From Laetiporus sulphureus 93-53 (taxonomy: Eukaryota; Basidiomycota; Agaricomycetes; Polyporales; Laetiporaceae): a stretch of DNA of 64,000 nt. Both the position numbers and the translations under genes were made by a program. Shown here piece by piece: positions 190 to 47,176 of the stretch. The stretch lies in NCBI RefSeq assembly GCF_001632365.1, contig NW_024468518.1:724199-788198 (forward strand), given 5' to 3'. Below the pieces are notes generated by a model. The model worked only from the letters and a program-made list of their open reading frames with translations. It was not told the origin of the DNA and ran no database searches. Each line of letters opens with the position of its first letter. Position 1 is the stretch's first letter.

Positions 190-530
190 ATGAGAATGCT
201 TGAACAATAGCTGACACTATTGTTTATATACATATATATAGGTGTAAATAGGGTTTTTTGCAAGCAGGTAACTGTGGATACTATAAGATGAGTGAAAATA
301 AATCTGGGCTCTTCAGATGATAACATCAATAAGATATCAGAAATTATATCTGAAATATGAAGCATTATTAGCAGAAAGCCTTCTCTAAGCTAAATATGCA
401 TAGTGAGAACTTCTCACTATAATGTTCTTTATCACACATATGCCTTATTGCTGTAGTTGTGATAGCCTCATGATTATGTTTTCCACATACAATATTGTTA
501 ATGTTCTTACCTTACATATACATCATGTTG

Positions 531-1098: not shown

Positions 1099-1107
1099 AT
1101 AGGTGAG

Positions 1108-1512: not shown

Positions 1513-1656
1513 AGTCCGAAAAATTGTTATTTCTTTTAATGCACATAAAAGGACTTAGCTAACCACATAAAATTGATAAGAAACTTCATGTGAAGATTAA
1601 CTTCATTTCTGACCCTCATCATTCATTCAAGGTGACATTCTTCCTTGATTTAGTAT

Positions 1657-2943: not shown

Positions 2944-4479
2944 AATGCTGCAGGGTTTGCAATGTGTAATATGTAGAAGAGCTTTTCATTATCTGAAACT
3001 TGGTTGGATCCACCATTCAGCTATTTACAGCCCTTAATTTCCTTTCTGAGCATTCAATCTACACTTCCAGGATGTCATGAACCTTGATAGTGTTTATGAT
3101 GGCTGTATGCCATGGCTGGCAGGATGCAATCGAAGGCATTGGACATCACTATGCTGATCACATAGGATGGTTTATGTGAGGATGCAGCTTATCTGCTGCT
3201 ATCATGATCATCATATCATGACACAGTGCCACTTCATGGTCACACATTCACATTTGATCTCATTGTCAGCCTATGTACAGATCTTAATCCTGACCAGTAT
3301 TACATTGCTATTCATCAATTGAAAGAGAAGGAAAAGAATCATGAGGCAAAGGTAGCAGTTTTAGAAGATATTCTTGCTTTTATTAAACTCCACAAGAAAC
3401 ATTACAAGCTTATGGCTAGTGATCAATGCTGCAAATATGGCAGTGTAGATGATCATAGCAAGATACTTCAAGATATCTGCCATTTTAAGCTGTATTAAAA
3501 TATTCAGAGTGGCCTCAGAAGAGATTTTCATTATCTTAGACTTGGTTTTCAAATCCTGAGTGGCTGACATACTTACAGGTTCTGTAGCCCTCATAACTAT
3601 TCATTAAGCTAAAAGTCTGCTATTGATAAATATAATCACACTCAACATGTTCATTGAGTATATTGTATAGTATGTATGCTTTTGATCAAACTCTGATGCA
3701 CTATATATACAAATGGTACTTTGAAATATTGAACATAGCATGGCTAGACATTGTCTGGCTGAATACAGATTCAAATTTGCTGTATTATGAAGATGATGAC
3801 AGATCACTCATGATGTGAGGCTGTATACCTGTAAAACTGATAACAAGATGACTCTGACCTTTATGTTACCATTCTGAAAACTGAGCTTCAGAATGGCTTG
3901 AAGCATTACAACAAAGGTGTAAAGGAGATAATAATTTCAAGTGTAACTTTAAACAGACATGAAGATGACTTAAAGAGAATACTCTTAAGACTATGACATG
4001 GCCTGATCAATCTTCAAAACTTAATTTCATATATCATCTTTGAACTCATCTCAAAAACATATTAGCAAGATATGAGAGGCCACTCAAAGAAATTACAGAA
4101 TTGTAAAAGCAGTTAAAAAAGAAATGAAAGGGTATTGACAGGTTTGTGCATCAAAGTTTGATCAAAAGTTTACATTAATGTCTTCAGGCAGTGCTTAGGA
4201 CAAAGGGTTGATTAATCAAGTACTATGGTTTTTAGGTTTGAAGGCTTTGGATTGTTAGTGACAAAAGTGTATAAATGAGTGAGCCTGATAGAATTGCACA
4301 TATCTTCAAAACAAAGCATGAATATCTAATTAAAAGATACTCATTTGAAAGCTGAAAAGCATGGCTTTCTAGTGCTATATTATTCGTGAGCATAGCAGCA
4401 GCCAATCTGAAGATAGAAGGGCAACAGTGAAAATTAAGGTGGCTAAAAACTTACATTAGTTAAACAAGGAATAAAAAGT
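2944..4479. other. AT-rich stretch, no gene recognised
   Basis: Low CpG, AT-rich. The longest open frame (3,226-3,498, plus strand, 90 codons) contains a lysine-rich helix-like segment but no domain I recognise, and has no convincing splice partners. It may be a transposon-derived remnant. Confidence 0.5.
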
Positions 4480-4740
4480 GTCATAACTTCAGAAAATGCT
4501 AAATCATACATTATTCAGATGATAGTATATTGTTGGCCAGATTAGATACAGTGGAACGTGATAAAATGCAAATGTTTGAAGTGTTTCGGAAGAATTCAAT
4601 TGATTTGATGAATATTGACCACAGATACAGTACTTTGATTGGCCATGAATATTTGCACTTATTTGGATCAGCCACCTTTCAGATTCAAACTCCGATTCAA
4701 ACCCAGCGCTCTATGTGCATCAGCAAAAATAACATTTTTT
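4480..4740 (+). repeat. Partial copy of the 531-1,098 repeat
   Basis: The segment around 'ttgattggccatgaatat' and 'tttggatcagccac' matches the middle of the two longer copies at 531-1,098 and 5,868-6,466. It sits directly beside the inverted block 4,748-5,142, so the neighbourhood at 0.5-1.5 kb is partly mirrored here. Confidence 0.6.
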
Positions 4741-4747
4741 GGCCTAA

Positions 4748-5142
4748 AAGCATGATGTTCTGAGGCTCCAGAACCTCAGGAAGAAGATCTTTCAATTTTA
4801 GAGGAATGGAATTGAGATTAGCTCAAAGTATTGTGTGCACAATGCCAAGCTATGACATCTATCATTCGGGCAACTAGCTAGTTGCATTAACGACAAACAT
4901 CATAATATGGTCTTATTTGCGCATTGTGACAACTTAAAGTGTGGGAATTTAGATGGCTGACATCCTGTAGCCTCAAATCTTCGCTTTTTTGAGCCAGAAA
5001 ATAATCTGCATGTTGTTCTCATTGCAGGGCATGAAGATATGTCATGTACTATGTATTATCCATGTGGTCAAACATTATAAAAAGTTGAGATATGGATCAG
5101 AATTTTTAACATTTTACCATGGTGGCTGAAGACTCAGATTGT
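4748..5142 (-). repeat. Inverted duplicate block, right copy
   Basis: Reverse-complement counterpart of 1,108-1,512, running from 'aagcatgatgttctgagg' to 'gtggctgaagactcagatt'. The two copies differ by many substitutions and small gaps, so the duplication is old. Confidence 0.8.
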
Positions 5143-5856
5143 CTTACCTATTCTGCTTGTCTAGATGAAATGAGAATAGCATTACAAAGTTAAGCATGAG
5201 CATGCAGTATACTCTATAATGCATGTTTAGGTATCAAAGTGTCAACAATGTCCAAGCCTGCTAAGGTTTTACAGTTCAGCCACAGCAGCACTGAGTGTTA
5301 TTGTAGAAATGCATTGTTAAAGCTGTGCATAAATCATTTATATACTTCAATATGTTCTATGAAGCCTTTGATCATCTTTCCCTTCTGCTATGCATTTCTC
5401 AGGCAATAAAAACATATGTAACACCCTCAAGAAACCATCAGCCACACTTGAAGCTGTGGCTCAGCCACTAAAGGCAAATAAGAGCAATCAATTTTACCAC
5501 AGTGGCTGAAAACTCAGATTGCATAAACTATTCTGCTTGTATAGATGAAATGAAGAAACAGCATATGGAGTGAGTTATGAGGATACAGTATACTCCATTG
5601 TGCATTGCAAGGTTTCAAGTTATCACTGATATCTAAGCACGGAAAGGGTTTTCACTTTAGTCACAGCAGCTTTGAGTGTTACTGTAAAAATGCATTGTTG
5701 AAGCTGTGCACAAACTATTTGTACACTCTATTAAGCCTTTAGTCTTGCTTCTGCACATTTTCTGAGCAATAAAAGCATATGTAGCCAGCTTAGAAAGTCA
5801 TTAGCCACACCAAGAGCTGTGGCTTAGCCACTAAAGCCAAATAAGGCCAATCAATC
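5111..5856 (+). repeat. Tandem duplication of about 370 bp
   Basis: Two head-to-tail units, 5,111-5,490 and 5,491-5,856. Both begin 'attttaccaNNgtggctga', both contain 'cacagcagc', 'gagtgtta', 'aatgcattgtt' and 'agctgtgca', and both end with 'gccactaaag.caaataag'. Divergence is high. No coding capacity was recognised. Confidence 0.85.
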
Positions 5857-5867
5857 TACTCTGATGC

Positions 5868-6466
5868 GGAAAACTTCAATTGCACCAATAGGACTTATTT
5901 GTGTATGCTCAGAATGAAGAAGTTGAAGTGTAGAGCAATAAAATGTAGAGATCTATTCTTATTATTCAAGTAGAGACTATAATAAGTCCGAAAAACGTTA
6001 AATCATTCATTGTAGATCACAAAATGGTGAATGCTGTGGTTTGAACCACTTTGAAGCCATTGAAAGCCGTGGTTTGAATCACTTTCAAGCTATTGAATAC
6101 AATGGTTTGAACAGCTTTGAAGTCATCAGCCCTTCAGGCATTAACTCTAGCAAATTCAATGCAGTGATTGGCTCTGAATATTTGCATCTATTTGGATCAG
6201 CTGTGTTATGCAGGTTCAAACTCCGGCTTGTATGTTCATTAGAAAAGATAACAAACAGCAGTAACAACAAAATGTTATGCAGTAAGAACATTTTGAAGAA
6301 ATGCCCCTCTCCTAACCTCAGGACAGGGGCAGAAAATGAAACCACTTTGTAATGGTCCACTGTTTCACGCTTTGCTTAAGTATCTCATGGGAATAAGAAA
6401 ATGCTATATAGACACCCTAAGTGCCCAGTCCTGTTCAAACTCTTTCTTCGTATCTCAGAAATCGTA
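5868..6466 (+). repeat. Dispersed direct repeat, copy 2
   Basis: Counterpart of 531-1,098. It differs by a local triplication near 6,041-6,125, where 'tggtttgaa' recurs at short spacing. It ends where the arm of the next long-TIR element begins. Confidence 0.8.
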
Positions 6467-7660
6467 ATTTCATCATCTTTGATCTAAAAAAAGTGAAAAA
6501 AATTTTGAAACTTTTCATCATAGTTTTGTATGAAAAATGATACAATGATTGAAGAAATGATTATTAATATTTCATCCAATCTCCTTTCAATCTTTTCATC
6601 ATCTTTCACAACAAAAAATGTTAAAAATATTATAGATACTTTTATCACAAATTGACAGTGAAGATGCTTGAAAAATTTGAACTTTTTCCTCAATACTTTT
6701 ATCATCTTTTACCTCAAATTATTGATTGCTTCACCCAGTGATATTGAAGAAAAAGTTTAGATCTTTTTACCATCTCTTTTAACAATTTATGATAAAAGAA
6801 ATTTAAATTATTTTTAACATCTTTTGTTGTAAAAGATGATAAAATATTGAAAGAAGATTGAATGAAATATTAATAATCACTTTTTCAATCATTTTATAAT
6901 TATTTACATAAAATTATATAAAAAGTTTTAAATACAAATTTCAGTCTCTTTTGAACAAAGACTTTGAAAATATTAGGACTTGACTTTATATACAAAGCTA
7001 GTACTGAGGTATGAAGGTTGATACTCAGGTTTATATGTTAGCATTATACTATTACTATGGTCAGAAGATAATACTAAGATTCTAATGTTAGCAGTATGCT
7101 AATACTAAGCTTTAAATGTTAGTATCATGCTAGTACTGTGCTGGTATTAAGGTTTGGAGATTAGTATTAAGATTTGAAGAATGATACTATGCTAGTACTC
7201 AGATCTAAAAATGAGTACTAAGGTTCAAATGTTAGTACTTTGCTAGTGTTAAGATCTAATTGCTAGTACTATGATAGTAATATGAAGATTTAATTGCTAG
7301 TATCAGGTTAGTATTGTACTATTATTATATTACTATCATGCTAGTACTAAGGTCTGAAGATTAGTGTTAAGATTTAAATGTCAGTACTGTGCTAGTCTGA
7401 AGTTTTCAAATGTGATACTGATATTTAGATCTGAGTATCAACCTTTACATTCTGATATTGGCTTAGTGTAGAATGATAATAATGGGACATGATCACAATA
7501 TGTTCATCATCTTTGATAAAAAAACAATAAAAAAAGATATCAAAATGTTTTATAATCACTTTGTCTAAAAGATTGTAAAATGATTGAAAAATGATGGCTA
7601 ATATGTCCTCTAATCTTTTTCTCATTTTTTCATCATCTTTAACAAGAAAAGATGACTTCT
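6467..7660. mobile_element. CACTA-like element copies, rearranged
   Basis: A right arm ending at 6,740 ('gcttcacccagtg') is followed at once by an internal piece of a left arm ('atattgaagaaaaagttta'). Then comes the minisatellite core in reverse orientation (about 6,985-7,460) and a right-arm sequence ending near 7,660. This looks like two copies joined by deletion of their ends. The assignment rests on similarity to the element at 1,657-2,943. Confidence 0.5.
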
Positions 7661-7849
7661 TTGTTGCATTTAACCATTTTAAAACTCATCTTTCATGAAG
7701 CAGGATGCTTGACAGCATCATATATATGTTCTTTTGACTGCTATTATTTATGTTGTACACTCCGTTGTATACTGCACTCTGCGCAGTTCACATGATAGAG
7801 AAGATACAAGGAAGGGCAAACAAGTGTGTGTGCTAGTCTAAAAAGACTG

Positions 7850-10050
7850 GCATGCTCCTAGCTCAGATTCACAGAAGCAAGGGATGCAGAGGTGTAGGCA
7901 GTAGCAATATGAAGAAAGGCCATCTGAGTGGCTTCACAGACATCACCATGGCTTATCAATAAGCTAGTCAGTGTGAAAAAGCAGTCAATGCACATGTGCG
8001 TGTAGTGAATAGCAGGGCAGGATGTAACTGCAGGTGTTAGTGAATTTGAGCCTGCAGGTGCAATGGGATTGGGCAATGAAATGAGAGAAAAGATAGATAC
8101 CAATGTGCTCATGTCCAGTAAGGGCTTGAACAAGTGTGGCTTCAGTGAAACACTCCAAATCAGAGAGCCAAAAAAAAAACAGGATAAAGAATGATAAAGG
8201 GCGATGTTTTCAGGCCTTGCACTTAGCAGCGAGTTGATCAGAATGCAAGAAAGCCCACCATCAGTAAATGGTCACTCACTCATGCATTCACTATTTTATT
8301 CACATTATTGTCAGGAGAACAGCATGTTGTGCTCTATACATTTCTGTAAACTTTGTACAGTATATACCTCTTTGAAGCACAGATACACACTGATCTTTCA
8401 TGTCCTGTCTGACATCAACATCAGTGACCCATTAATATAACTAATGAAAGGCCCTGAGCATATGTGTACTTAGGGCAGGAAAGGTCATGGAGGCAAGGTG
8501 GGTCACACTAAGTAAGGTAGACTACATGTTGACGTCCATATTGTCACCATGCTCTTCAAAAGGTTGATCAGTGGGAGAAAGACTGCTTGAGCCTATGCCA
8601 GCAGTGCCATTGAGGACATCGAGGATTCTATACTCTGCCTGCTTGGGGCATGCAATGGAGTCCACATGATAGAGATCATGACAGCTGACACATCATGAGT
8701 GCAGGCAAGGATCAGAGGCAGTGCAATTCTCCTTCATGCATGAGGTGCATTGTAATTGATGTGAGTCTTCATGATGACAGCCAGTGCACACATGGCATCA
8801 GAGTGGTTGGCTACACTCTGTGAATAGGTGGCTGTAGGCCCAGCATCTTGTACACTGTCAGAGGTGCAGCTTCTTATACTAGTGCAACATAGTGACAGGA
8901 GCACCAAAAGTGAAGAGGGAGGTGTGAAGGAGAGTGGCTAGAGCAGAGCCATCTGGGTCCTCAAATTCAAGGGCAACAGATGAGTGAGCATCATCAATGA
9001 GTTCAGGTTGATGTGTCGAGCATGGAGGTTGGGTGATAGAAAGGCACTTGATGACCAGATTCTTGCTAAGCTCCTCTGCCAGAGCAAAAGGAGAGTGAAC
9101 TGCTGCACTAGAGCTGGTCTATATGTAGATATTGTCAATGAGAACTCAGGACCGCTTGCTATCTCTGACAATGGAGTCAATGTGGCTGAGTTTCAGGGCA
9201 GATTAAATAGTGGGGAGGTGGGCATCAATGTGAAGGTGAGATGTGTTAGGTGAAAAATTCAAAAGAAGGTTGAAGAAGAAACTTTGGATATGTCACGAGT
9301 GCAGTGAGCCCTTCAGCAGTGAAGATTATGATCAGGGCATGATTAATGTCACTGAGGATGGCAGAGGGGGTGGCAGAGATGAGATATTCAGAAATATGAC
9401 CTGAGAACTAAACCACATACTGTATCAATGCAGATGCATGCTTCTTAGGTGCAGAGGCCTTAGAGGCAGTTGGGGAGGGTTCAGAGCATGCACAGGAGGA
9501 ATTAGATGTGAGGGAATGGATGCCACTGCATAAGACTGCCCCTTGGCAACCTTTTTCTGAGGTGTTGCAACTGGAGGAAGCCAGCACAGCAAAGCCCCAA
9601 CTTACACATGTCTCGAGGGCTGTGAGCTGGATTTTCAAATTATTGTAGAGGGCAGCAATGACAGTGGCAATGTCATCGACTGCAGTCTGAGGAGGTGGCA
9701 TGAGGGTAGGGGTCTGAAGTCAGGATGCCAGAGTGTCATGAAGGGCCACATTGGCCAGCATGAAGGCCAAAAAAGGGTTAGCAGAGTTGAGGTCAGAAAA
9801 CCAGCCAGATATGGCATTGATTACCTAAAGGGTAAGTTTCAAGTCAACCACCATCTTCCCTGCTGGTGAGCCAGCAAGGTGAGATTTGTCAGTAATCTGT
9901 TAGAGGGCAAGTTTGAATTCATAGAGCACAGAGGAAGAGGATAGGGAGGATGAAAGCCTGGCAGGCACCATAGACACTTGCATAGATGATGGTGGTTGCA
10001 GTTCAAGATCCATTTGTTTATAAATAACTGCATAGTCTGATCCAGTATTA
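7850..10050 (-). pseudogene. Decayed coding stretch of unknown origin
   Basis: This segment is less AT-rich than its surroundings but still nearly free of CpG. On the minus strand several frames give protein-like, Ala/Ser/Leu-rich peptides interrupted by stops, for example 7,858-8,133, 8,938-9,180, 9,408-9,701 and 9,635-9,817. Many stops are TGA or TAG at places where a CGA, CAG or TGG codon mutated by C-to-T would give them, as expected of deaminated coding DNA. I do not recognise the family; a transposon-associated or multicopy fungal gene is possible. Confidence 0.4.
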
Positions 10051-10139
10051 CATTAGACACTGATATTTTCATAAAGATTGACAACAACTGAGATGCAATC
10101 ATCTTTCATTGTGTTTATGAGCTCGACATTCACATTATT

Positions 10140-10335
10140 TAATTTCATTAACACTTCTCTCACTCTCTCTCACAGGGGCAAAATTGATCACTCTGCTAAA
10201 GTTCAGAATTTTGATTTCGAGCATGGTGACTTGGTACTAGTCTGGCATATGCAAATCAATATATGTACATATCAGTTCCCTATCTGGGAGGGTGCATCAA
10301 AAAGTATGAGGGCTGAGCTATATCCATTTAATTTT
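10140..10335 (+). pseudogene. Ty3/gypsy integrase C-terminal relic
   Basis: The plus-strand frame reads FDFEHGDLVLVWHMQI, close to the 'F.F..GDLVLV.N..I' segment that I recall at the C-terminal end of many fungal Ty3/gypsy integrases. No reverse transcriptase, RNase H or LTR was recognised beside it. This is a short fragment, so the call is tentative. Confidence 0.4.
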
Positions 10336-10499
10336 CTGATTTGTACAGTATACTGTATACATGCCTTGCAATCAAAAAGTATACTCTTTTGCTACTATAT
10401 TTATTTGTTCATGGACTGCTGTATAACACATCAACACCAGCAAGCCTTAAAAATGACAGGGCTGATTGTTCCTGCATACTATCTCACTGAAGTGACCTG

Positions 10500-11940
10500 A
10501 GAAAGATTTGCCACTTTCATTAAAATGTTGTTTCTTGTCACATTGAATATTCCTATATAAGATGTCAAGTTTCATCACTTTAGCCATTGCACATGTCCCA
10601 CTTTTGTGCATTGGCATAAACAACATTCTCGTGAGCCCTTTATCTTTATGAATATCTGTGCTAATGATGATGCTGAACATGAACATGATAAAAGGCTCAG
10701 ACCACCAGAACAGAATTCTTGTTTTGAGCCTGACAAAGTTAATATCAAGCCACTGTAGTTTATCTTGTGATTAATGAGTGATCACATAGAATGTCCACTC
10801 TTCAATGGAGAATGTTAAGAACATACACATCTGACTATATATATGTCAATGTGTGCACTTCACAGCTGATTATATGATGTTATTGAAATGTCTCACATTT
10901 GTCTTCTGCTAAGTCTCAAGCAAGCAACTGTATAAATGCTTCAGATATGAGCTTTGCAATATTAGACACCAGTTGTAAAGTCATTGACATCACCATTAGA
11001 ATGTGGTGAGCAGAAGCCATGTTTTACTTACTTCTCTTTCTTCTTTTATGACATATGATTTGCTGTGAACCTTCAATGATAGCCAATGTGCACCCCTCAT
11101 GCAGAATTACTTCTGCAGTAGATGTCACTTATCTATCTATGTATATAGAATTTAACCTCTTTAACATTTGTTTTACTTCTGCACCATTCTTCATACCATC
11201 AAAATGATGGTACATGATGCTGCTGCTCTTCTAATGTACATAAGTATCAAATATTGTTTCTGCCACTGCAATGATTAATGACTGTATGAAATCAAGTGGC
11301 AGAAACATTCTGTTTAAGATCTGTAACTATCCCAATGTGGACATTACTCTTATATCACTCACTGAACAAACAGATGCACAGGGTCATCTTAACAGTGCTA
11401 TTAACATCCTTCAGGTAGACCACTCTGATCAGCATTGGCAATGTACATTCATTTTAGCAATTTCTGTGCACCACAAACAGTGTTATCTTTAAAACAGGTG
11501 CAATGAAATTCTTCAATTGACATGCAACCTGGTGATCTAATATATTTCAAATTAGTGTTCCTTATTCTCAGTGAGATGTGGCCATGGCTTACCTCATCAA
11601 TTCTCAACATGCCACATTTTTACATGTCTTACAAGATTACAGTCTTCTTAACCCTAGACAATGCTCAGATGAAATTGCACAAGTCACTCACTTGCAAATG
11701 GATCATGGCATTGTCACCATATGCAGAAGCTCTGAGACCACTGCACTGTGTTCCATTACACTGACATTGAGAAGCTTGTTCTGAAACTTTGTCAGTGCTG
11801 ATCTCACCTACAGCATGGACTGGCATCAAACTCACCTTTGTTGTGGCCTGTGTGATACCATATATCTTGACAATGATGAAATGCTGGTGACTGACATATA
11901 CATGCAACATGGATATGACTTCAGTACACATTATTAATAT
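10500..11940. other. AT-rich stretch, no gene recognised
   Basis: Short open frames only (for example 11,271-11,492 and 11,665-11,958), without recognisable motifs and with the CpG-poor composition of the island. Some may be transposon remnants. Confidence 0.5.
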
Positions 11941-12940
11941 TTTGAATCCTTTTATCACAAATTGACAGTAAAGATGATAAAAAGGTTTAAACTCTTTGTA
12001 AATATTTTCATTATCTTTTAGCTCAAATTATTGATTGTTTCACCCAGTGACAGGTGACTGTATAATCATCTGCCTTAATACACTGAGTGAAGCAATCAAT
12101 ACTATACGATGAAAATAATAAAAATGTTAAAGAAAAAGTTCAAATTCTTTAACATCTTTACTATCAATTGATGAAAAATAAAGTCAAATATTTGTGACAT
12201 TTTTTCTTATAAAAGATGACAAAAATATTCAGAGAAGATTTCAGAGAAGATTGAATGAATATTTATTTTTATTTTTATTTTTATTATTTATAATCTTTTA
12301 TATAAAGTTATAATAAATGTTCTAAATGTTTTCACTCTTTATTTGTCTAGGATGATGAACATATTGCGACTGTGTCATGTGATCATATACAAAGCTAGAG
12401 CTAAGATATAAAAGTTAACACTTAGAATTACATGTTAGCACTATGCTAGTGCTATAGTTAGAAAAAAATTAGAATTCTAATGTTATCAATATACTAGTAC
12501 TAAGCTAGTACTAAGATCTGAGGGTTAGTGCTAAGGTCTGAAAATAGTACTATGCTAGCATTAAGGTGTCAGAAAGTAGTAATAAACTAGTACTATGCTG
12601 GTGATATGCCAGTGCTAAGATTTAAATGCTAGTAATACCATTTGAGCCTGAGTATTAACCTTCATATTCTATTACTGACTTAGTATAGAATGATAATAAT
12701 GTGACATGATCACAATGTATTCATTATCTTTAACAAGAAAAGAATTTAAAACTTTAAAACTTTTTTTATAACTTTTTTTGAAGATCAAAAATAATTCAAA
12801 AATAATTGCTATCATTTCCTCAAATCTCTCTCCAGTCTTTCTATCATCTCTGACAAGAAAAGATGCTCAAACTTTTTGAACTTTTTCTTCAATATCTTTG
12901 CTATCTTTCATCTCAAATTATTGATTGTTTCAACCTTGTG
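11941..12940. mobile_element. CACTA-like element copy with extra arm
   Basis: A solitary right arm ends at 12,049 ('gtttcacccagtg'). After about 30 bp a new element begins at 12,081 with CACTGAGTGAAGCAATC and ends near 12,940 with 'tgtttcaaccttgtg'. The minisatellite core lies at about 12,390-12,690 in the orientation opposite to copy 1. The flanking triplets differ, so no clear target duplication is left. Confidence 0.5.
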
Positions 12941-13615
12941 TTATAATGTGATCATGTCACATTATGATCATCTTACACTAAGTGAGTACTAGGATATAAA
13001 GGTTAATACTTAGGTGCAAATGTTAGTACTATGCTAGCACTATGTGAGTATTATGCTGGTATTAACCTTCAGATGTTGATACTAGCACAGTATTAACTCT
13101 AAAATCTTAGCACTTGCTTGATACTAGCATAGTAAGACTCCTGAGGCTTTAGTACTGGCATTCTATTAACATTTGAACCTTAGTACTGACTTAGTAGTGA
13201 CATAGTAGTGACCTTTGAGACCTTAGTGCTAGTATGATATTAGCATTATATTAACAATTGATAACTAATTAGCTTAGTATCAGCATATTGCTAATGTTAA
13301 ACATTAGTATTATTCTTCTGATCATAGTACTGGTATAGTGATAGCATATGGATCTGCATATAAACCTCCATACATTAGTAATAGATAAGTATAGGATAAC
13401 AAGAGTGACATGATCAAATATATTTATTATATTTGACAGAAAAGAATGAAAAATAACAGAAAGTAATTATTTCATCCAATCTGCTTTCAATCTTTTTATC
13501 ATTTTTAATATAAAAATGTGAAAAGTATCTTAAGTTATTTTATTAGAAATTGAAAGCGATGATGCTGAAAAGCTTCAAACATTCATTTATTATCTTTCAT
13601 GGATGAAGCAAACAA
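12941..13615. mobile_element. CACTA-like element fragment
   Basis: It starts inside an arm ('tgatcatgtcacattatgat'), has a minisatellite core at about 12,985-13,400, and ends with an arm that decays around 13,615. The outer ends are missing or too degraded to place. From 13,616 to 13,815 only AT-rich sequence is seen. Confidence 0.45.
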
Positions 13616-13815
13616 TAATTTAAGAGTGATAAATAAGAAATTATATAACATTGAAAGAATTATTGATAGTATAATAAAAAATTATCACAATCTAATTACA
13701 ATTCATCTATGATAACAATTGTGCTATCAAGTACCCTCAAAAGTATATTCAATTTAGATGATATAGTAGAGGTACTGTGAGGTATTGATTATGGAGCTAT
13801 AGGCTTTATTCTGAA

Positions 13816-14964
13816 CATCAGGTGAAGCAATTAATAACTAAAAATGAAAGATAACAAATACATTAAAGAAAAAGTTCAGATTTTTCAGCATATTTACTGT
13901 TAATTTGTTCAAAATGTTTTTAACACCTTTTTCTGTCAGAGATGTTCAAAAGATTAAAAAAGAGATTAAATGTAATATTAGCAATTGTTTTTATTATTTT
14001 ATAATCTTTTATACAAAATTGAGATAAAACATTTTAGATTCTTTTTGATTCTTTTCTTGTTGAAGATGATGAATATATTGTGACCATGTCACATCATTAT
14101 CATTCTACACTAAACCAGTGCTAGAATATGAAGGTTAATACTCAGGTTCAAATCTTAGTGCCAATGTTTAAATCTTAGCACTGATACAGTACTAACCTTC
14201 AGACCTTAGTACTAGCTTGATACTAGCATAGCACTAGTGTAGTATTAAACATTTGCACCTTAGTACTAACATAGTATCATGGCAGACATGACACAGTTTA
14301 TCAATGTGGAAAATTGTGTGAGAATGTCAGCTGATGTTTTACATTTATGACAAAGCTTTGTCAATTTAGCATTTAAACAGCAAATAGTGCACATTCACAG
14401 CCAAAGTGAAACATTTTCAACATGAAATGCCATAGTTGCAAATGTTTGTCACATGTGTAAGAAATCAGTCAACATTCACACACAATTCCTCACATTAATA
14501 AATCACATTATGTCTGCCGTGTATTAGCATATAACTAACATTTAGATCTTGTAGATCTTAATACTAGCTTTATACTTGTACAGCATAGCATAATACTAAC
14601 CTTCAGACCTTAGTACTAGCATATCGCTAGCATTAGAATCTTGGTATCATCCTCCTAATCATAGTATAGTACCAATATATAAATCTGAGTATTAATCTTC
14701 ATATCTTAGTGGTAGCTTAGTATATGATAACAAAGATGTGACACAGTCACAATATATTCATCATCTTTAATAATAAAAAAAGTAAAGAAGATTCAAAAAC
14801 ATTCATCAAAACCTTATCTAAAAAATTATATAATGATTGGAAAAATAATTATTAATAAATAATCTTATTAACAAATTAACAGTGAATATGCTTAAATATT
14901 TTAAACCTTTTCTTCAATACCTTTATCATCTTTCATCTTAAAATACTGATTAATTCATCTAGTG
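13816..14964. mobile_element. CACTA-like element with nested insertion
   Basis: The left end 'catcaggtgaagcaatt' and right end 'ttcatctagtg' match the family termini. The minisatellite core is split by the 244-bp inverted-repeat element at 14,278-14,521, so that insertion is younger. Arms and core otherwise follow the layout of the copy at 1,657-2,943. Confidence 0.5.
14278..14521. mobile_element. 244-bp MITE with TAT target duplication
   Basis: The ends are CATGGCAGACAT and, on the other strand, CACGGCAGACAT. The element is flanked by TAT on both sides (14,275-14,277 and 14,522-14,524). It interrupts a minisatellite array, which resumes right after the duplication. The ends resemble those of the larger element at 16,466-17,151 (CACCGCAGACAT), and both contain 'catagttgcaaatg', so they belong to one family. 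CAC ends with 3-bp duplications fit a CACTA-type transposase, but no protein is present. Confidence 0.75.
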
Positions 14965-16465
14965 AGATTCTAAGTAAAACATGCTCATATTGTGTGTTTA
15001 TTATAAGAATGTCAAAATTAATTTTATACATAAGCATGTTATGCAATTACAATGAGAACTCAGAATATAAAAATGCATGACATGTTATTATAATTTATTA
15101 TTATGTTAAAAGGGGTGCAGAACCTACACAGTCCTCTTAAGATGCAGAGAAATGGATGATCAGCTGCTATAGAGTCTGGCTTGACTCTTCAGTATCCTGC
15201 TTGAGTTACACATCATGCATTGTATTATAATTATTGCATGTGTTAGTGTTTAATTTTAAGAAGTCTAACTTAAGCTTGATTTTCAGTGATGACAGTAATA
15301 TTCAACCTTTTGTGTCGAGGAAAAGCAACATCTTAGACATATCACTCTTTAATGAGTTTTCTTCTGATGCTAAAGATTTGCAGTGACATCATTTATTTTG
15401 TTAACTTTAGGCACAACCCTGACATGATCGTCTGACTGATGTGTGATGTCATTATCTTCAATAACTTTCAAACTGCAGTCAATTACTGACATTGAGCAGT
15501 ATATTCAGCTTTATCTAGTGATACAGATGTAAATTTTATAATTGCTTTACAAAATGTTGAGAGCTCAAATGGCCCTTTTATAGCATGACCTGAGATAACT
15601 ACATTTAATGTCACTTATAATAAGCTGATTGGATTTTTTTTGAAAAGAGTGACACTCATTTTTTGCAGAATCTGTTATTCTTGTCACATTTCTTTTTGAT
15701 CTTAGAGCATATGAAGCTATACTAAAGTTAAAACATCTTTTTCTTCAAATATATAAATCTAGCAACTATGTGCATTTTATAAAAAATTTAACATATTCAA
15801 TAACTGGCATTTTCTTTATTTTGAAGTCCTCTTTAGACTGAATAATTTAAATGAAATTAATATTGCACACTTTAAGAGATTTTAGAAGATACTCATATCA
15901 TATTTTGTAATATTTCTAATACTGCTGCCTCTCTTTCTCAATAATCATGCCATGATCATTGCTGATAAGCATGCAGTAACCTTAGCAAGTATAGTATCAT
16001 TTAAAGGTGAGCTCTAAGTTCTGTAGCTGCTTACTGTGTGATCATAGTCTGAGACATAAATGTGAACTCATTCATAGTTCAAGAATAAGTTGAGACTTTT
16101 AAAGTCAGATGACTCCTTCACAATTGATGTGACATGTAGTGAAGTGGCATCTGTCATATATAATAAGTAATTATAAATGTCCTTGTATTTTCATCTGAAA
16201 ATATTTTCAATTCTCTTATCTGAAATTATGATATAGCCTTGCACATCTGCGATTGAAACTTGCTGATGTATAATTGGCCTACTGTTACACTGTATGCTAT
16301 GCACGAAAAGATTATCTATTCTAAGGTTCATTTCAGGTGTATGTAGATGAGATGAGCAATAAGTTTTCTGTCAATCTGTCACAGTATTTCTTTATTACAT
16401 GTCCTCACATGACATCTCACACACCACAAGGCATCACGTGCTTCACCTGAATCCCACACCACAGA
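14965..16465. other. AT-rich stretch, possible copia relic
   Basis: No intact frame. On the minus strand near 15,500-15,600 a peptide with 'SVSLDKAEYTA' vaguely recalls the 'SLSTAEAEY.A' segment of Ty1/copia RNase H, but neighbouring motifs are not recognisable. I would not call it a retrotransposon on this alone. Confidence 0.25.
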
Positions 16466-17151
16466 CACCGCAGACATGATGGCATTTGCAACTATGGCAT
16501 ATGCTGAGTTAGTCTTTTGCCGTTGTAAGTGATATTTGCAATGGTGTCATTTCGTATCTCAGATTGTGAAAATGCAACAGGTTATTCAGTGATCACAGAT
16601 TAGTTACAAACATTTTAAGATATGCAAGCATTGTGCATATTTAAACAATATGTCAAAATTTAGCACTGTAAAATTTGAGTTGCAAATTATACGTATTAGA
16701 TGACATTTGCAAGTCCGGCAGATGAAGATGCAAAGGGTAGATTCAGTCAAGGAGGTCTATATTCAACATTAGAATCAATACATCTCACACCTTGTACCAG
16801 ACTGAAGTGATGGTGTTGCATGTGTTCATGTAAATTTCTGCTACGGAATGTTGAATATAGGCCTCCTTGACTGAATCTACCCTTTGCATCTTCATCTGTC
16901 GGACTTGCAAATGTCATCTAATATGTATAATTTGCAACTCAAATTTCATGATGCTAAATTTTGACATATTGTTCAAATATGCATGATGCTTGCATATTCC
17001 AAAAGTTTTCAAACTAATCTGTGATCACTGAATAACCTGTTGCATTTTCACAATCTGAGATACAAAATGACACTGTTGCAAATATCACTTACAAAGGCAA
17101 AAGACTGACTCAGCATATACCATAGTTGCAAATGCCATCATGTCTGCGGTG
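16466..17151. mobile_element. 686-bp fold-back element, AGA duplication
   Basis: Two arms of about 305 bp (roughly 16,466-16,772 and 16,848-17,151) are reverse complements with few mismatches, separated by a loop of about 75 bp. The ends read CACCGCAGACATGATGGC on each strand. The trinucleotide AGA flanks both sides (16,463-16,465 and 17,152-17,154). The high arm identity, in a region where other repeats are badly decayed, suggests recent insertion or arm conversion. No coding sequence is present, so it would need a transposase from elsewhere. Confidence 0.85.
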
Positions 17152-17154
17152 AGA

Positions 17155-17760
17155 TGTGTAGAGGTCAAGTGATAGTCTACACCACATATTTAGGTCTGGA
17201 TCTTTTGATGATAAGATCAGACTGGTCTATTCCAGGAATACAATAGTGATGCCCATTTGGGAACAAAGAGAACAAGGACTATTGTTGAAGATCATCTTAG
17301 CAATCTGCTAACAGTTTAGCCATTGTCACGATGAGAAAGATCATCTCACCATTGTTATGGATGAAGACTGATCTTCTCACTTATTGTTCTAGTTTAAGAC
17401 AGATCGTCTCACCTATTGTTTCACATATAGTTTAGTTGCCTATGATACATAGATAGTCAATTCACCTTATAGTAGTGGTTATGTAATTGGGCCCCCTGTA
17501 TGTGTATATAAGACAAGCCATATAAAGGATGAAACTTCAGATTGTTTCTCCTCGTCTACCATAGTAGTCACTTTACTGAGCCTAACCAGCTCCATTATAT
17601 CTTTATCACCTTTTCAAGCATGCTCTATATCAGTGAGTCACTTGTTGGCTTAACAGCCAGCTAGGGTATCAGGGGAATAAGGCAGCACTTCACAGTGACT
17701 GACTTTTTTGGTCTCTTTGATCTTTTGCCCAGCTAGCGCTGTGACACAATCATTGAATAT
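17155..17760 (+). repeat. Possible solo LTR or promoter-bearing repeat
   Basis: It contains a TATA-like 'tgtatataagac' at about 17,500. Upstream of this (17,290-17,430) a motif like 'agatcNtctcacctattgtt' recurs three to four times. A segment beginning 'tgttgaagatcatctta' could be an LTR 5' end (TG start), but no matching CA end with target duplication was fixed. Tentative. Confidence 0.3.
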
Positions 17761-19230
17761 CAGAAAATAAAACTATTATGCCTCTAGATCTTGCAATGTT
17801 CAAGAAGTAAATACTTATTGATAAGAACATGTCATGACATGTTCACTGCAAATTATAGACAAAAGTCAGCATGCACATTAAAGCTCTCAGCTAATGGTTT
17901 ACGCACATCAGAGCTGAACTTTAAATAATGGTTGAGCTTGCTCAAGGACATTAGGATGGAAAGTGCATTGTATTTTCCTTTCAATGCCAAGTCAACACTT
18001 GGCAGTAAGTCAAAGATTAGATAAAAATTAACCTTGATAATTGATATTAGAGATGATCAGCTGATGCCTCTCAGGTTGTTGCTGTCTAGCCAAATACTCA
18101 TGTGCATCTGCATGTATGTATATATATAGGGCATGGTGTGCAGTGTGTTCTGTCATTTTTTTCTTTCTCATTGAGACCAAGGTGATGATTTGACAGTCAC
18201 AGAGGGGCATCAGCCCATGAACTATGACAAGTACTAAGGTCTAAAGGCTATGTTATACTAGGTCTAAAGATCAGCACTAGGGTCCAAATATTCACACTAT
18301 GCTATACTAAGCTAGTACTAATAGATCTTAGTACAAGCCCTTTAACTTTCTCTCAATGCCACTACCTCACTTATGTCATTCTATTCCCCTCTTTTTACCA
18401 CCACCACTATTTGTGCACCTTTCAGTGTTTCAGCATAAACTGCATTTAGTTACCAGTACTTGACATCAGATATACTGTAAATGTGCAAAAAATGAGATCA
18501 TCTAATCACAAAAGCTTAAGGACAGTAATGTCAGTTGAACAATTTTTGCAATTGATGTTGGCTATTTCATCAGAACAATGATGAAACAATGGTGCTTTGC
18601 AACAGCCTCCATCAACACTGCAGGATACAAATGACTTAAGGTCTATTTCAAGACCAAGCATAATAGTAGCAGCATATACATAAGATCCATCTCTCAATTC
18701 TTTTTGATACTCATGACTGACAAAAGTGTTTGTCACATCTAAAGACTGATTTACAAGTCTGTCTTTTTCCAAACCATTGATCTCTGCATGCAAAGCAATG
18801 GCCCTCTTAATAAAGCTATGGCATATTTGTCTCTTATCTTTGTCAAGGTGTATTTATGGGTTACAATATGTTTTTCTTCTAGATCTGATATTCAACGAGG
18901 AATTGTACAGATAACACATGCTTAGTGTAAATATCCACCTGCTGAAGTAGACATGTCCCTGTATGACCGGTCGACCCATAGAGCTGCTAAGGGGTTTAGG
19001 CAGCTGAGACATGCAAGAAAGCAGGCGAAGATCATGATCAGGCTGTTGAACAATACCACAGACAGTGACAAGGAAAAGGCAGGGAAAGGCTGATGAGGTG
19101 GCATACTGCATGCAGCAATAAAAGGCATCAATTACCTTTCGTCCGATCCAACCTCTGTCCGTCATTGCCCATATGGGCAAGCTTGTCAACTTCCTGCACA
19201 TGAGAAATTGCTGCCCAAAACACACATTGA
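17761..19230. other. AT-rich stretch, no gene recognised
   Basis: It contains a short minisatellite tract at about 18,230-18,345. Minus-strand open frames at 18,506-18,793 and 18,854-19,234 have no recognisable motif and no convincing splice partners. The second ends against the stop codon of the E2 gene. Confidence 0.45.
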
Positions 19231-20948
19231 TCATACAGAATCTGCAATCAAGCGCTGCGGCTGCTCAATCCATATCCTCCACAGCTCCATAAAACCGATG
19301 AGCTCAGCGCCTTCCACTACCCGATGATCCGCGCTCCAGCTAATGCGCACCTTGAGCCTTCTCGCGCCTTTGCCGTCCTCTCCATTCACATCCCACACCC
19401 ACTTCGCCCGCCCGACAGCTACGATTGCTACGCCGCCACTTGGCACGAGCACGGGGGACGCAGAGTCGACATCACCTACTCCGCCGACATTGGAGATAGT
19501 GATTGTCCCTCCACGCTTGGGCATCTCAGCCGACGTGAGTGCGCATGGCACTTGACGCCCGAGATGCGCGAAATGCTTGAGCACTGAGGCGATCTCGTAG
19601 ACGGTGCGTGTATTAACATGCTGAATAGTTGGTGTGTAGAGACCGGTCGGTGTGGATAGCGCGATGCTGATATCGGCGTGCGGGCGGATGGTTAAGGTGG
19701 GCTTGTCAGCTGCTGAAGAATTCGGTTGAGAGGTAAGAGACGAGCGAAAGAGCGGCCACTCCGCCATAGCCTTCGAGAGTGTCTTCATCAGGAATGGTAA
19801 ATAGGTAAGACGAGTATAACGCGCAAACTCTGGGATCGCTGGAGGATCGGGAGGCGGGTAGAACGATGCTGGCGAGACAACAGGCACTGGCGAGTGGCTC
19901 TGTGGCTTCTGTAGATAATGCTTGGGTATATGAGAATTGAGCATGGGAAGGAAGTCGTGTAGGGTCGTTAGGTCAAACGTGCTCGTGCACCTATACACCG
20001 TGTTCGACGAAAGACCACTGTTAACAAGACGGAACTCACCCGAACTGCGGAATCTCCAGACTCTGTTGACCTGAATGAGCTTAAATGTCACCGTTCCGAG
20101 GAACTGAACTGACTTTCGTCATTGCTTTCCACATGTTCAATCTCGTGCGGCCCAGCTCGATGGTGATCTCAGCATCTGAAGCGAGACTGGCGGCAGCTGT
20201 CTCCACCTCCGAGGCTTTCGACGCAGATCCTGCCAGATAAGCTTCGACGTCCTGCTTCTCTATTCTACCACCCTTTCCACTGCCTGGAACCAAGAGCGTC
20301 AAGTCTACGTCTCTCTGACGAGCAAAGTAACGGATTGAAGGAGTAGCTAATACGTCTTTGCCGGATGGTTGAGAGGTTTCAGACGACTCGCTAGAATATC
20401 TGGGATCTAATGGATGCGGCCGCGACTTTGGAACCGCACGTTTGACTTCTCCCTTTATGCTTCCGTCCCGGATGATCGAAGTGGAAGGCTGTTCCTGAGG
20501 CGGCGGCGTAGCACTCTCCAGGGTCGCCAAGGGAGCAGAGCCAGAGTGTGCAGCGTCAGATCCGCTCTCTTCCACCTCGATGATACAGAGCCCTGCACCG
20601 ACTTTCGCGACGTCACCTTCATTGACAAGGATGTCTCTGACAACGCCGTCAAACGGGCTGGTAATCTCCACGCTGGCTTTGTCGCTCTGGACCTCACAAA
20701 GAGGATCGAAGACCTGGACTGAGCTGGCAGGCTTCACGTTCCTGATAGCAGGTTCCTCGCGACAGTGAGAGAAACATAGATGAGGAGAAAAATCGGACGG
20801 ACCATTTAATGACCTCGCATTCGGTGATGCCCTCGCCAATGTCGGCCAGCTTGAACTCCTTGAGCTTGCGAGCCGTGGAGGGAAGCGAGACGCGCAGGTA
20901 ACGAGCCCGAACGCGAGCGACGGGGAACAAGACGCGACGAAGCAGCAT
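19231..20948 (-). CDS. Branched-chain 2-oxoacid dehydrogenase E2
   Basis: This dihydrolipoamide acyltransferase is the core of the mitochondrial branched-chain 2-oxoacid dehydrogenase complex, which breaks down Val, Leu and Ile. Four exons: 20,948-20,803, 20,741-20,114, 20,062-20,040 (23 nt) and 19,990-19,231; 518 residues. An Arg-rich start resembles a mitochondrial presequence. Then come the typical LADIGEGITECEVIKW lipoyl-domain opening, lipoyl Lys about residue 70 in VQSDKASVEI, an E3-binding domain (TPSIRYFARQ...GGRIEKQDVEAYL) and the acyltransferase domain. The 23-nt exon is required to encode the conserved KSLEIPQFG. In the active site His488 is present, but the usual HxxxDG reads HRVVEG, so Asp is replaced by Glu. 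The gene is divergent from dhc1 and borders the repeat island. Confidence 0.93.
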
Positions 20949-43950: not shown

Positions 43951-45583
43951 ATGGGCGCGTGCTTGTCGTCCGGCCCGCTCGACAATGTCACTGAGGAAGA
44001 TAAGAGGCGCCATCGGGAAGCAGAGAAGAGTCTCAAGGAGGTGCGTCATCCCGCCCTCTCGCACGCGTGCCCATCGCTCACCTGCCCGGTCGCGATTTCA
44101 GGCAAAAGCCCGGCTGTCCAAGCAGGTCAAGGTGAGCCCGCTCTCTGGCAGCCCTGTGCTGCAGAAGCTCATCTGCGCAGGTCCTCCTACTCGGCTCCGG
44201 AGACTCGGGGAAGTCCACCATCCTCAAACAGATGCGCCTTATCCATAAGGTGCCCTTCTCCGACCAGGAGGTTGAGTCATACCGGCAGCTCGTGTTCAAC
44301 AACCTCACGCATGGCCTCAAGTACCTCATTGATTCGATGGAGGATATGGAGCTCGAGGTCTCGCCAGAGAACGAGCAGTATGTGCAGCTGATCACTGATG
44401 CGCCGGACCTAAAAGACGGCGAGGCATTCCCGGAGCAATATCATGAGCCGTTGCAGAAGTTGTGGGAGGATATCAACGTCCAGAAGGCATGGGAGAGAGG
44501 GAACGAAGCTGCCCTGCCGGACAAGTGAGCATCCTCCGGTCTTCCGCGCGCATAGATGAAGCTGAGTTATGCGTTCACAGCCTCATCTACTACTTCCCAG
44601 ACTTGGATAGGCTGTTTGACCCAGCATATGTTCCAAACGAGCAAGACATCGTCCAGGCTCGTGCGCGGACCATTGGCATCACAGAAACGGTGTTTCAACT
44701 CAAGGACCATGAGATGCTCATGGTGGACGTCGGTGGCCAGAAGAGCGAACGTCGGAAATGGATTCATTGTTTCCAAGATGTGACAAGTATTCTCTTCTTG
44801 GTGAGTCTCAGCGGGTACGACCAATGTCTGGTTGAGGACAAGGACGCGGTATGTTATTCTTCATTATCGAGGCAACATCCTGGACTGATCAACGATCAGA
44901 ATCAAATGCAAGACGCGATGACCATCTGGGACTCGATATGTCATTCGCAATGGTTCAAGCAGACATCAATCGTTCGTACACTTTGACTTGAGCATCATTT
45001 GTTGTGTTGATGTGCATATATGCGCGCAGATCCTTTTCCTGAATAAGAACGACCTGTTCGAGAAGAAAGTTGAGCATTCGAACATCAAGAACTTTTTCCC
45101 GGTGGGTGCCAATGATCTCATCGCCGCTTCCCAGCTGGTGCTAATACATCGGCGATAGGACTATGAGGGCCAGCCGGGCGATGCCAGTGCAGGTCGGGAT
45201 TATTTCAAGAAACGTTTTGCACGGTTAGCGCAGAAGGCGAACCAAAAGGAACGAGAAGTCTATATCCAGTACGTTCTTCGGCTGGGTGGTCCTTCAAGGA
45301 GCGATTGGGTGGCTGACATTTGTCCAAGTACAACTACCGCAACAGATACCGCGATGCTTCGGATAGTTATGGCTGCTGTCGAAGGTCAGTCTAATCTTTA
45401 CATCTGAACTCGTTTGTAGCTGACGAGTTTCTGTGCAGAGTGAGTGTCTTGTTCTTTCTCTATCCCCCCGCATCCACACCTTTCTTCCCTCCTTTGTCAC
45501 CTTGACCGCATGCTTAATACGACGGCGACCCATCCTTCAGCATCATTCTTCGACAAAGCCTTCAGACTGCGGCACTGATCTAG
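43951..45583 (+). CDS. Heterotrimeric G protein alpha subunit
   Basis: GTP-binding switch acting with seven-helix receptors at the plasma membrane, in fungi in pheromone and nutrient signalling. Ten exons: 43,951-44,040; 44,102-44,131; 44,181-44,524; 44,581-44,848; 44,900-44,971; 45,030-45,101; 45,159-45,268; 45,329-45,384; 45,439; 45,541-45,583; 361 residues, the family length. MGACLS carries a myristoylation Gly and palmitoylation Cys. P-loop GSGDSGKST (45-53) differs from the usual GAGESGKST. Arg182 and Thr185 lie in RARTIGITET, Gln208 in DVGGQKSE, with NKND at 273-276 and TATDT. The end IILRQSLQTAALI lacks the pertussis-site Cys. Joining VE to IILRQ in frame needs a one-base exon. Agaricomycetes carry many G-alpha paralogues, so no symbol is given. 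Confidence 0.93.
45439..45439 (+). other. 1-nt microexon of the G-alpha gene
   Basis: The sequence 'ctgtgcag|A|gtgagtg' gives a consensus acceptor and donor around one base. The upstream exon ends GTC GAA G at 45,384 and the last exon begins C ATC ATT CTT at 45,541. G+A+C makes the conserved Asp of AVEDIIL. Without the extra base the frame shifts to a 12-residue unrelated tail. No other acceptor/donor pair between them gives the needed length (1 modulo 3). Confidence 0.7.
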
Positions 45584-47176
45584 TGTGATGCCATTTTATT
45601 CATTTCTTGATTTATGCCACGTCATCATCTCCCTGGATTTTTTATTACGCGATGCCACTGTTCTGCTGTACTCATATCCTATCCTCCTCTTCGGCCATTC
45701 TTGTTTTATAATTCCTCGCCGTCCGCTTCGAGAATTCCACGTCTTCTTTTTGTCTCACTACCCTCCGCGTTGTTGTTTTTTTAACTCATTTTCCTTCCCG
45801 GAACCCATTCATAACTGTTCATGACCATTGCAACTCATCCACGTCTTCCTTTCTGGTGTCCTACTACGCGTCTAATTTTCGTCCGCGCCTCCATCGTAAC
45901 CTCCGGAATATCATGCTCGGACTTGGCAATGTACCCGCACCGCTGCGCTGTCCCTCGTCTTGCAGCACAATCATAAGCAATAATGTGGGTAACGTTCCCA
46001 CGTGGACTGCTATTGGCCGAAATCTCACTGCTATGCTTATTGGTCAGATTCGCGAAATTATGCTGTAACGATTCCAGCACGGACGATCCGCCCGTACCCG
46101 GCGTGCACATCAATGTTCACATCTGCATCCGCATTCGTGCTTGTGCGTGTGAGCTGTTCGGCAGGACTCCGTACAGCGCGGCGGTTTCACTTCATCGGGA
46201 CCCACGAGTGTCGCCGAAGATGCGGTTCTGGAAGACTTCTTGTGGTCGCTTGATGGGACGCATATGGCCGTATGTCTCGTATGTCTTTCTCGCCGCTTTT
46301 TATAAACCCTCATCATTATCCGCAATATGATACCACCTGTACTAGCTATAATTCAGCTACCTCTGACTGCTTTCCGGAAAATATACATTCGCTTTCGTTC
46401 GCTATGGCATCTCAGCGTCAGGGGCACGGGCGCCGAACGAGGCGTGCTATGAGTGGCTGGTCATTGCTGCGCAGTATCTCCTGAAGGAGTACGCCACCCC
46501 GACGCTCTAATTTGTGTGCGCTCCGACGATGGTGTGGATAAGCGTTGGCCATGCGTTTCATAGTGCGGGTCGGCGACGGCTGCGGCGCCCAGCGTGCGCT
46601 AGTGAGAGCGGCAGGAGATCTATGAGATAAGATCATTTTTTGGACATGATACTGTGAAAGCCATGGAAGGATTTACGGCGGCGGCTCGCTCCGTGAGAGG
46701 CATCTGAGTGCTGCCTTCCCCGTCGAGGACACGCGCACGTTCTTATGCTTCCGCAATACAACGGCAGCGGGACCTCTGCGGTCGAGACTCCTTCAGTTGC
46801 TTCCCCAGAAGAGAGCTCACTGCTAGGCAACACATATTACACCAGAAACTTTCCGAGACAGGTCACACCGATGCATGCCAATAGACAACTTATTCTCGTC
46901 GACCATGGGGTACATAGGCGAGGAGAAACATAACGCGCCGCCGTCCGCATGGTTAGGTAAGACGGAAGATGACGTCGGAACACAGAAATGTCCATTCTGT
47001 CCGAATGATTGTTCCGGCAGAGACACAACTCCGCCGTTCATCGATATCGAGGAGATGAACGCCGGCACGACACCGACCGTGGTATTCAATCCCCGAGTTG
47101 ACCGTCAGGTACATCCGCATATATTCCTGATGCAATATCAAGTACAACACACGAGAGAGAACAAAATGTTTCCCGC
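45584..47176. other. Intergenic region, no gene recognised
   Basis: 1.6 kb between the 3' ends of the G-alpha gene and the SDR gene. Many short frames; the longest (46,875-47,366, plus) runs antisense into the last SDR exon and shows no known domain. Confidence 0.5.

Follow-up and report, generated by a model that had tools for sequence, protein, structure and literature searches.

The window analyzed here, a single stretch of 64,000 nucleotides (G000:C9:724199-788198), was examined together with the assembly to which it belongs (38.6 Mb in 124 contigs). Spliced translation places a complete G-alpha gene at 43951-45583, with its ATG at 43951, if the path that we term type A is followed to its end. 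The seven introns that separate the eight upstream coding exons are 49-61 nt long. When the adenine at 45439 (A45439) is included, the product is a G-alpha of 361 residues that ends in MAAVEDIILRQSLQTAALI. G-alpha subunits are recognized by their GTP-binding motifs and an N-terminal acylation signal, and the translation contains GSGDSGKST, DVGGQ, and NKND and has the N terminus MGACLS. The full protein covers positions 1-333 of the 333 in the Pfam G-alpha profile (PF00503) with a score of 397.1 bits (cut-off 48.8). The protein made by skipping A45439 also matches (profile positions 1-331), and because both forms match, Pfam does not arbitrate between them. The closest protein among the best 120 of 1690 matches is P0001 of Laetiporus sulphureus (Polyporales; 97% identity over 100% of the query), and the product is a basidiomycete G-alpha subunit of the kind that is annotated as GPA2-like or "alpha subunit 4."

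Two further properties of the region were observed. The P-loop (window 44181-44240) reads GSGDSGKST and departs from the usual G-alpha P-loop, which is GAGESGKST; the variant is invariant in two 25-row alignments of chosen relatives and seems, from these sequences, to be normal for the G-alpha group of this gene. The GC content is 0.28-0.41 at 1-20000 of the window and 0.49-0.56 in the remainder, which suggests that the AT-rich part is a repeat-rich or decayed stretch beside gene-rich sequence.

A Candidate Single-Nucleotide Exon Completes the Reading Frame

A first-pass annotation of this DNA had claimed that a one-base exon is needed to finish the G-alpha protein. Exon 8 ends in GTC GAA G and the type A terminal exon begins C ATC ATT CTT CGA, as that annotation had it. 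Insertion of A45439 between them gives DIILRQSLQTAALI followed by a stop codon, and A45439 would then be the middle base of an Asp codon. Direct joining of exon 8 to the terminal exon gives ASFFDKAFRLRH and a stop codon, the unrelated tail of 12 residues that had been foreseen for the skipped form. The predicted features are listed in Table 1.

Table 1. Predicted features of the G-alpha gene and its two 3' ends (window coordinates; a slash marks a splice site)
Feature	Position	Strand	Basis or remarks
G-alpha coding exons 1-4	43951-44040, 44102-44131, 44181-44524, 44581-44848	+	spliced translation, P0001 match, Pfam
G-alpha coding exons 5-8	44900-44971, 45030-45101, 45159-45268, 45329-45384	+	spliced translation, P0001 match, Pfam
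GTCA, four bases added by alternative donor 45389	45385-45388	+	enumeration; main rival for the frame
Intron upstream of the one-base exon	45385-45438	+	54 nt, AAG/GTCAGT ... CTGTGCAG
Candidate single-nucleotide exon A	45439	+	middle base of Asp codon GAC; common to isoforms A and B
Downstream intron, type A path	45440-45540	+	101 nt, GTGAGT ... CCTTCAG
Terminal exon, isoform A	45541-45583	+	tail (D)IILRQSLQTAALI, stop; identical to transcript-like P0002
Downstream intron, type B path	45440-45965	+	526 nt, encloses the type A terminal exon
19-nt exon, isoform B	45966-45984	+	(GA)C ACA ATC ATA AGC AAT AAT = (D)TIISNN
Terminal exon, isoform B	46048-46068	+	ATT CGC GAA ATT ATG CTG TAA = IREIML, stop

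The splice signals around A45439 are strong (CTGTGCAG on the 5' side and GTGAGTG on the 3' side). The upstream intron resembles the seven introns before it in size and has a CTRAY branch-like site 15 nt before its 3' splice site; such a site is absent from the 101-nt intron, as it is from four of the seven upstream introns. A45439 thus appears, from the DNA, to have what a single-nucleotide exon should have: a 3' and a 5' splice site, flanking introns of 54 nt and of 101 or 526 nt, and a base that is required both for the frame and for conserved sequence. In the three PDB alignments shown, the Asp that it would create falls opposite the Asp of the C-terminal helix of animal G-alpha proteins.

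We enumerated the internal exons of 1-79 nt that are bounded by AG and by GT or GC and have acceptors at 45405-45519. There are 38 such candidates, 16 of them with a length of 1 modulo 3. Among these 16, only A45439 gives the exact junction VED-IIL (...AAVED/IIL), which agrees with the earlier claim that no other base fits. The other one-base candidate, T45445, has weak sites and a product with VEV, and it was rejected. Completion of the frame by a different short exon of length 1 modulo 3 is nevertheless conceivable in principle, given that 12 of the 16 keep the frame (45420-45426, for example, would give VEADDIIL), but the 11 in-frame candidates other than A45439 alter or lengthen the junction, and VED directly precedes tail A or tail B in 67 of the 68 transcript-like homologues described below. 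We regard this reading as exceedingly improbable.

The motif YAG-A-GTRNGT occurs once in the window on either strand, at A45439. In dinucleotide shuffling of the 156-nt intron (20,000 shuffles), it appears with room on each side in 0.145%. Bare AG-A-GT appears in 18.9% of the same shuffles; because it is so common, the surrounding consensus and the relatives carry the case for A45439.

Two features lie beyond the first-pass annotation: a second terminal exon set that needs the same A, and the existence of joins that keep the frame by removing a single intron. The enumeration found six of these joins, with proteins ending in AALI, and they were rejected. One uses donor 45389 and keeps the whole IILRQSL tail, as VEGHIIL.

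The Junction Residue in Related Proteins

Three protein searches (the best 120 of 1690 matches, all 42, and the best 120 of 1468) gave 159 distinct homologous proteins, all of which we classified and split by source. Those that came only from short contigs (lgn, jgi, and ena; longest 3167 nt) are called transcript-like (n = 68), and the others came from named records (ncbi, uniref, and nr; n = 91). The term transcript-like rests on contig size, and conservation of the base is read from protein tails, whose types were assigned by pattern, or by eye for P0147 and P0137.

Comparison with Agaricomycete orthologues had been put forward in the first-pass annotation as a check, and when it was made on proteins it favored the one-base exon. 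Among the matches listed, Asp directly follows MAAVE (or MTAVE or MTTVE) in 67 of the 68 transcript-like homologues, with tail A (D-IILRQSLQTAALI-like, DIILRQSLQTAALI-like) in 38 and tail B (D-TIISNNIREIML-like, DTIISNNIREIML-like) in 29. The lone exception, P0136, continues as VEECVSR... and is a read-through. For 50 of the 67 Asp proteins, no contig of the entry reaches the length of genomic DNA that the same isoform occupies in the window (21 of the 38 of type A, below 1633 nt, and all 29 of type B, below 2118 nt), and these contigs are therefore most likely spliced RNA; the contigs of the other 17, all of type A, are big enough to be genomic. Asp is also invariant in two alignments of 25 relatives each, whose rows were chosen for having Asp and hence provide no evidence.

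The named records, again among the matches listed, give a different picture. VED with a proper tail is present in 3 of the 91 proteins (all from Mycena, with tail B), and the remaining 88 lack the proposed junction and tail. Another 27 end in exactly VEE followed by a stop codon, and 35 have VEG followed by other sequence, often short and intron-like. Gly is followed by tail B in seven proteins and by tail A in three, each with exactly one extra base, and Gly plus one further residue precedes tail A in five (VEGN twice, VEGA, VEGS, and VEGY), as use of the +4 donor would produce. VEA is found in four, three of which resemble the skipped tail. Two are VEEC... read-throughs, and five fall into none of these groups, including Serpula P0083, in which VED is joined to an unrelated tail. 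The ten Gly models would be expected if reads with an extra A had been fitted onto the genomic G beside the junction.

The +4 donor bears on the main rival for the frame, according to which there is no one-base exon and donor 45389 (GTCTAA), four bases downstream of the end of exon 8, adds one residue to give VEGHIIL or, with tail B, VEGHTII. The intron so defined is of the GT-AG type and restores the frame, and tails of this kind are those of the 5 named-record proteins just mentioned. Yet the donor is weak (TCA/GTCTAA), and Gly follows MAAVE in none of the 68 transcript-like proteins, compared with Asp in 67. Moreover, any GTNNGT donor supplies a GT at +5 at no cost, so that gene finders will often be able to build a +4 model. 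We consider it very unlikely that this donor replaces the one-base exon.

The suggestion in the first-pass annotation that inclusion and skipping of A45439 could act as a switch finds little support: the skipped tail is present in 0 of the 68 transcript-like proteins, and skip-like ends are confined to named records.

The VEE end would have a simple origin in the DNA. It corresponds to GAA GAG TGA, that is, to exon 8 joined to the acceptor before A45439, with A/GTGAGT then read through. Its exact recurrence in 27 of the 91 named-record proteins, across several orders, is what a conserved AG/A/GTRA predicts. The genera concerned include Punctularia (Corticiales) and also Grifola, Schizophyllum, Coprinopsis, and Bondarzewia, which we take to represent further orders. 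A wrong residue at the same codon is found in Thelephora (Thelephorales), Jaapia (Jaapiales), and Gloeophyllum (Gloeophyllales); this fits the presence of the base and is no proof of the base alone.

A different reading of the same records is that the donor after A45439 is often unused, so that the main or a regulated product is the truncated VEE form and the switch consists in retaining the second intron. The window would yield the same end, and some of the 27 models are perhaps supported by reads. Against this stands the absence of the VEE end from all 68 transcript-like proteins (although clustering at 90% could hide truncated forms), together with the fact that gene finders can reach VEE by default, with no need for a one-base exon. 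Frequent disuse of the donor is compatible with our preferred explanation, and we think it rather unlikely, if less so than use of the +4 donor.

Some individual models deserve mention. Somion occarium P0014 ends in VEE and P0131 has a skip-type frame (VEASFCDK...); their longest contigs are equal in size, and they are probably two models of one gene. Mycena kentingensis P0135 and P0137 both read through past the presumed one-base exon as VEEC... and finish with tail B and tail A, respectively.

Taken with the sequence of the window, the Asp in 67 of 68 transcript-like proteins and the three Mycena proteins with VED and a proper tail uphold the claim that the G-alpha C terminus needs a one-base exon, and this exon is very probably real and old.

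Two Predicted Terminal Exon Sets Share the Same Phase

Downstream of the type A terminal exon, the window contains a second set of terminal exons. They would be joined in the context TTGCAG/CACAATCATAAGCAATAAT/GTGGGT for the 19-nt exon and GGTCAG/ATTCGCGAAATTATGCTGTAA for the exon that follows, and the set is entered in the same phase as the type A exon: each finishes the codon begun by GA. With A45439 the product ends in VEDTIISNNIREIML and a stop codon, whereas without A45439 the frame is lost and through the +4 donor the junction becomes VEGHTIIS. The tail encoded in the window, TIISNNIREIML, is identical to that of L. sulphureus P0001 and to that of the transcript-like P0015. One gene would thus possess two terminal exon sets of matching phase, as expected of alternative G-alpha C-terminal isoforms. 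The isoform B path places a 19-nt microexon between introns of 526 nt and 63 nt, so that two microexons are consecutive.

Tail A exceeds tail B by one residue, and the receptor-facing end should therefore be set differently in the two isoforms. Structure models of one type A and one type B relative place the Asp in the last helix (mean pLDDT 75.1 and 75.3, respectively); their last eight (type A) and six (type B) residues score below 50 and are too weak for comparison of the tails. A search for a third tail downstream to 48500 returned three pattern matches (46885, 47634, and 48278), none of which resembles a G-alpha tail, and no clear picture emerged from poly(A)-like signals.

Tails A and B Probably Do Not Mark Two Old Paralogues

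The two tails could instead come from a pair of paralogous genes present in every species, with the downstream B-like exons a relic or part of a second gene. No pair of A and B transcripts from a single named species was seen among the proteins compared, as this reading would have it. In the all-against-all comparison of 137 proteins, no same-species pair of short-contig proteins with tails A and B was found, in a database that is clustered at 90% and in which such pairs are rarely visible. Identity reached at most 98.0% in any pair; among A-B pairs the highest was 94.7%, between Mycena kentingensis P0135 and P0137, which are read-through models on two contigs.

We made a quick tree of the 92 protein cores with a recognizable tail, cut before the junction; the 67 of 159 proteins without one were left out, and the tree carries long-branch warnings. 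The labels (52 of tail A and 40 of tail B) do not form two clades and change 26 times. Shuffled labels gave means of 30.3 and 29.9 changes, and 24 and 45 of 500 shuffles were as low as 26, so that the labels are slightly clustered, a point in favor of paralogues. On the other hand, the starred (strongly supported) branches require 11 or more changes, whereas a single old duplication would call for about one, and this argues against two old paralogues. The simplest reading of these sequences is that each lineage has a single gene whose 3' end comes in two alternative forms.

The genome points in the same direction. The B exons of the window have intact splice sites and phase and encode exactly the tail of L. 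sulphureus, and in P0001 of that species the same upstream protein (97%) is followed by tail B. The 3' part of the gene has no second copy in the genome: 45329-46200 matches only itself, and the 19-nt exon occurs once as an exact sequence, with nine more places at three mismatches. With these observations on the other side, separate genes for the two tails seem to us as improbable as use of the +4 donor, and we return to alternative ends of one gene.

Elsewhere in the genome, 13 or more loci match G-alpha (L031-L043), several of them weakly and with divergent C termini, which makes for a large G-alpha-like family. A recognizable last exon with an unsplit Asp or Glu codon is present in 10 of the 13 (all but L035, L038, and L042), as judged with a pattern that could find unsplit codons only; the weak match C4:411935-412201 lies outside this comparison. 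One of these paralogues, L033 (G000:C41:50000-53500), has two tandem tail-like terminal exons, at about 2475-2525 and 2647-2694. The first follows TTTTTAG at 2475 and encodes EESILQAHLRSIDLI and a stop codon, and the second follows TATTGTAG at 2647 and encodes EEAILRAHLVAADLA and a stop codon. Both start with TCGAAGA in the same phase, and they may be another pair of alternative C termini. These fungi may make general use of G-alpha tail swapping.

Discussion

We consider it highly probable, from the DNA and the proteins of relatives, that a conserved single-nucleotide exon is the common junction to two alternative terminal exon sets that encode two receptor-coupling tails. The 54-nt upstream intron would be removed to the acceptor CAG/A, after which the RNA would read GTCGAAGA/GTGAGT and present a normal-looking donor. 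This donor could be joined to 45541, giving isoform A (...VED-IILRQSLQTAALI), or pass over 45541 and be joined to 45966 and then 46048, giving isoform B (...VED-TIISNNIREIML). Both paths would be entered in one phase, and a single base would serve two receptor-coupling tails. Introns near 55 nt would allow the spliceosome to work across introns, as a one-base exon needs. The upstream intron is presumably removed first, much as at a recursive splice site, except that one base stays in the RNA. On this explanation, A45439 would be used in L. sulphureus mRNA, both isoforms would be made from one locus in one organism, and tails A and B would be expected to differ in receptor preference. The switch, if there is any, would lie after the base, in the choice between the two terminal exon sets.

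A broader proposal, to which we give an even chance, is that the exon has been kept across several Agaricomycete orders as a one-base ratchet point that chooses between mutually exclusive terminal sets. Splicing would then let one G-alpha serve two receptor classes, perhaps according to life stage or partner, with the VEE protein as a third form if the donor is unused.

If the broader proposal is correct, it would supply, as far as we found, the first known case of a one-base exon from which an alternative splicing choice branches and likewise of a receptor-tail switch in a fungal G-alpha. The factors of its two splice sites cannot occupy a one-base exon simultaneously, so that each case is a test of how the spliceosome finds its sites. 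If both tails are made, splicing would give one G-alpha of mushroom-forming fungi twice the receptor-coupling repertoire, and the splice point would be the very residue that opens the receptor-contacting end of the protein. Studies of fungal G-alpha signaling may, where they depend on annotated models, be working with proteins whose C terminus is wrong or missing.

The animal GNAO1 gene, which encodes G-alpha-o, has alternative C-terminal exons that give alpha-oA and alpha-oB. It resembles the fungal gene in that one G-alpha gene has two terminal coding exon sets and two C termini, and differs in that larger exons are swapped and a one-base hub is not known from it. The fungal arrangement looks as if it evolved independently.

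The single plant example of a one-base exon cited by the first-pass annotation was correct, but the list was incomplete, since two plant genes and a group of Fusarium genes are described. Plant APC11 has such an exon, which in Arabidopsis is also an A and which has been studied with a minigene (PMC4674806), and plant VPS55 has one that is followed by a GTRAGT donor (PMC8831610, 2022). Like the G-alpha exon, these consist of one base between AG and GT, are needed for the frame, have been missed by annotation, and are long conserved; they differ in kingdom and gene. In VPS55 the forms described are those with and without the base, whereas in G-alpha the base seems to be constant and to lead to two downstream exon sets.

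The Fusarium CYP621A P450 genes contain a single-nucleotide exon that reads confirm in two species, in a paper that styles itself the first fungal and second overall case (PMC12940212); the VPS55 report of 2022 is earlier. CYP621A shares with the G-alpha gene a fungal host, a base in the middle of a conserved codon, phase-1 and phase-2 boundaries, and annotation errors around the exon. It differs in being from an ascomycete and in its AG-G-GT context, and alternative tails are not described in the sections considered. A one-base exon flanked by group II introns is reported from mitochondria, where the splicing chemistry is different (PMC12308204), and another is reported in placozoan mitochondrial cox1 (PMC5436844). 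The shortest exon reported for Phanerochaete P450 genes is 6 bp (PMC1184071), and in the passages considered of another paper microexons figure only as a mapping setting (PMC3990503). Among the titles and abstracts listed from the open-licence literature, we found none that reports a one-base exon for any G-alpha gene or for a nuclear gene of a basidiomycete, or two tails for a fungal G-alpha. One-base exons are known, as are tail isoforms of G-alpha, and their combination is new as far as we found.

Recursive splice sites, or zero-length exons, are a mechanistic parallel to A45439. Their consensus is CAG/GTAAGT (PMC5126111), and in both cases a CAG acceptor is followed at once by a GTRAGT-like donor, with two splicing steps at one point. 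A recursive site leaves no base, whereas at the G-alpha junction an A lies between CAG and GTGAGT, and one base would be kept in the mRNA between introns that are short.
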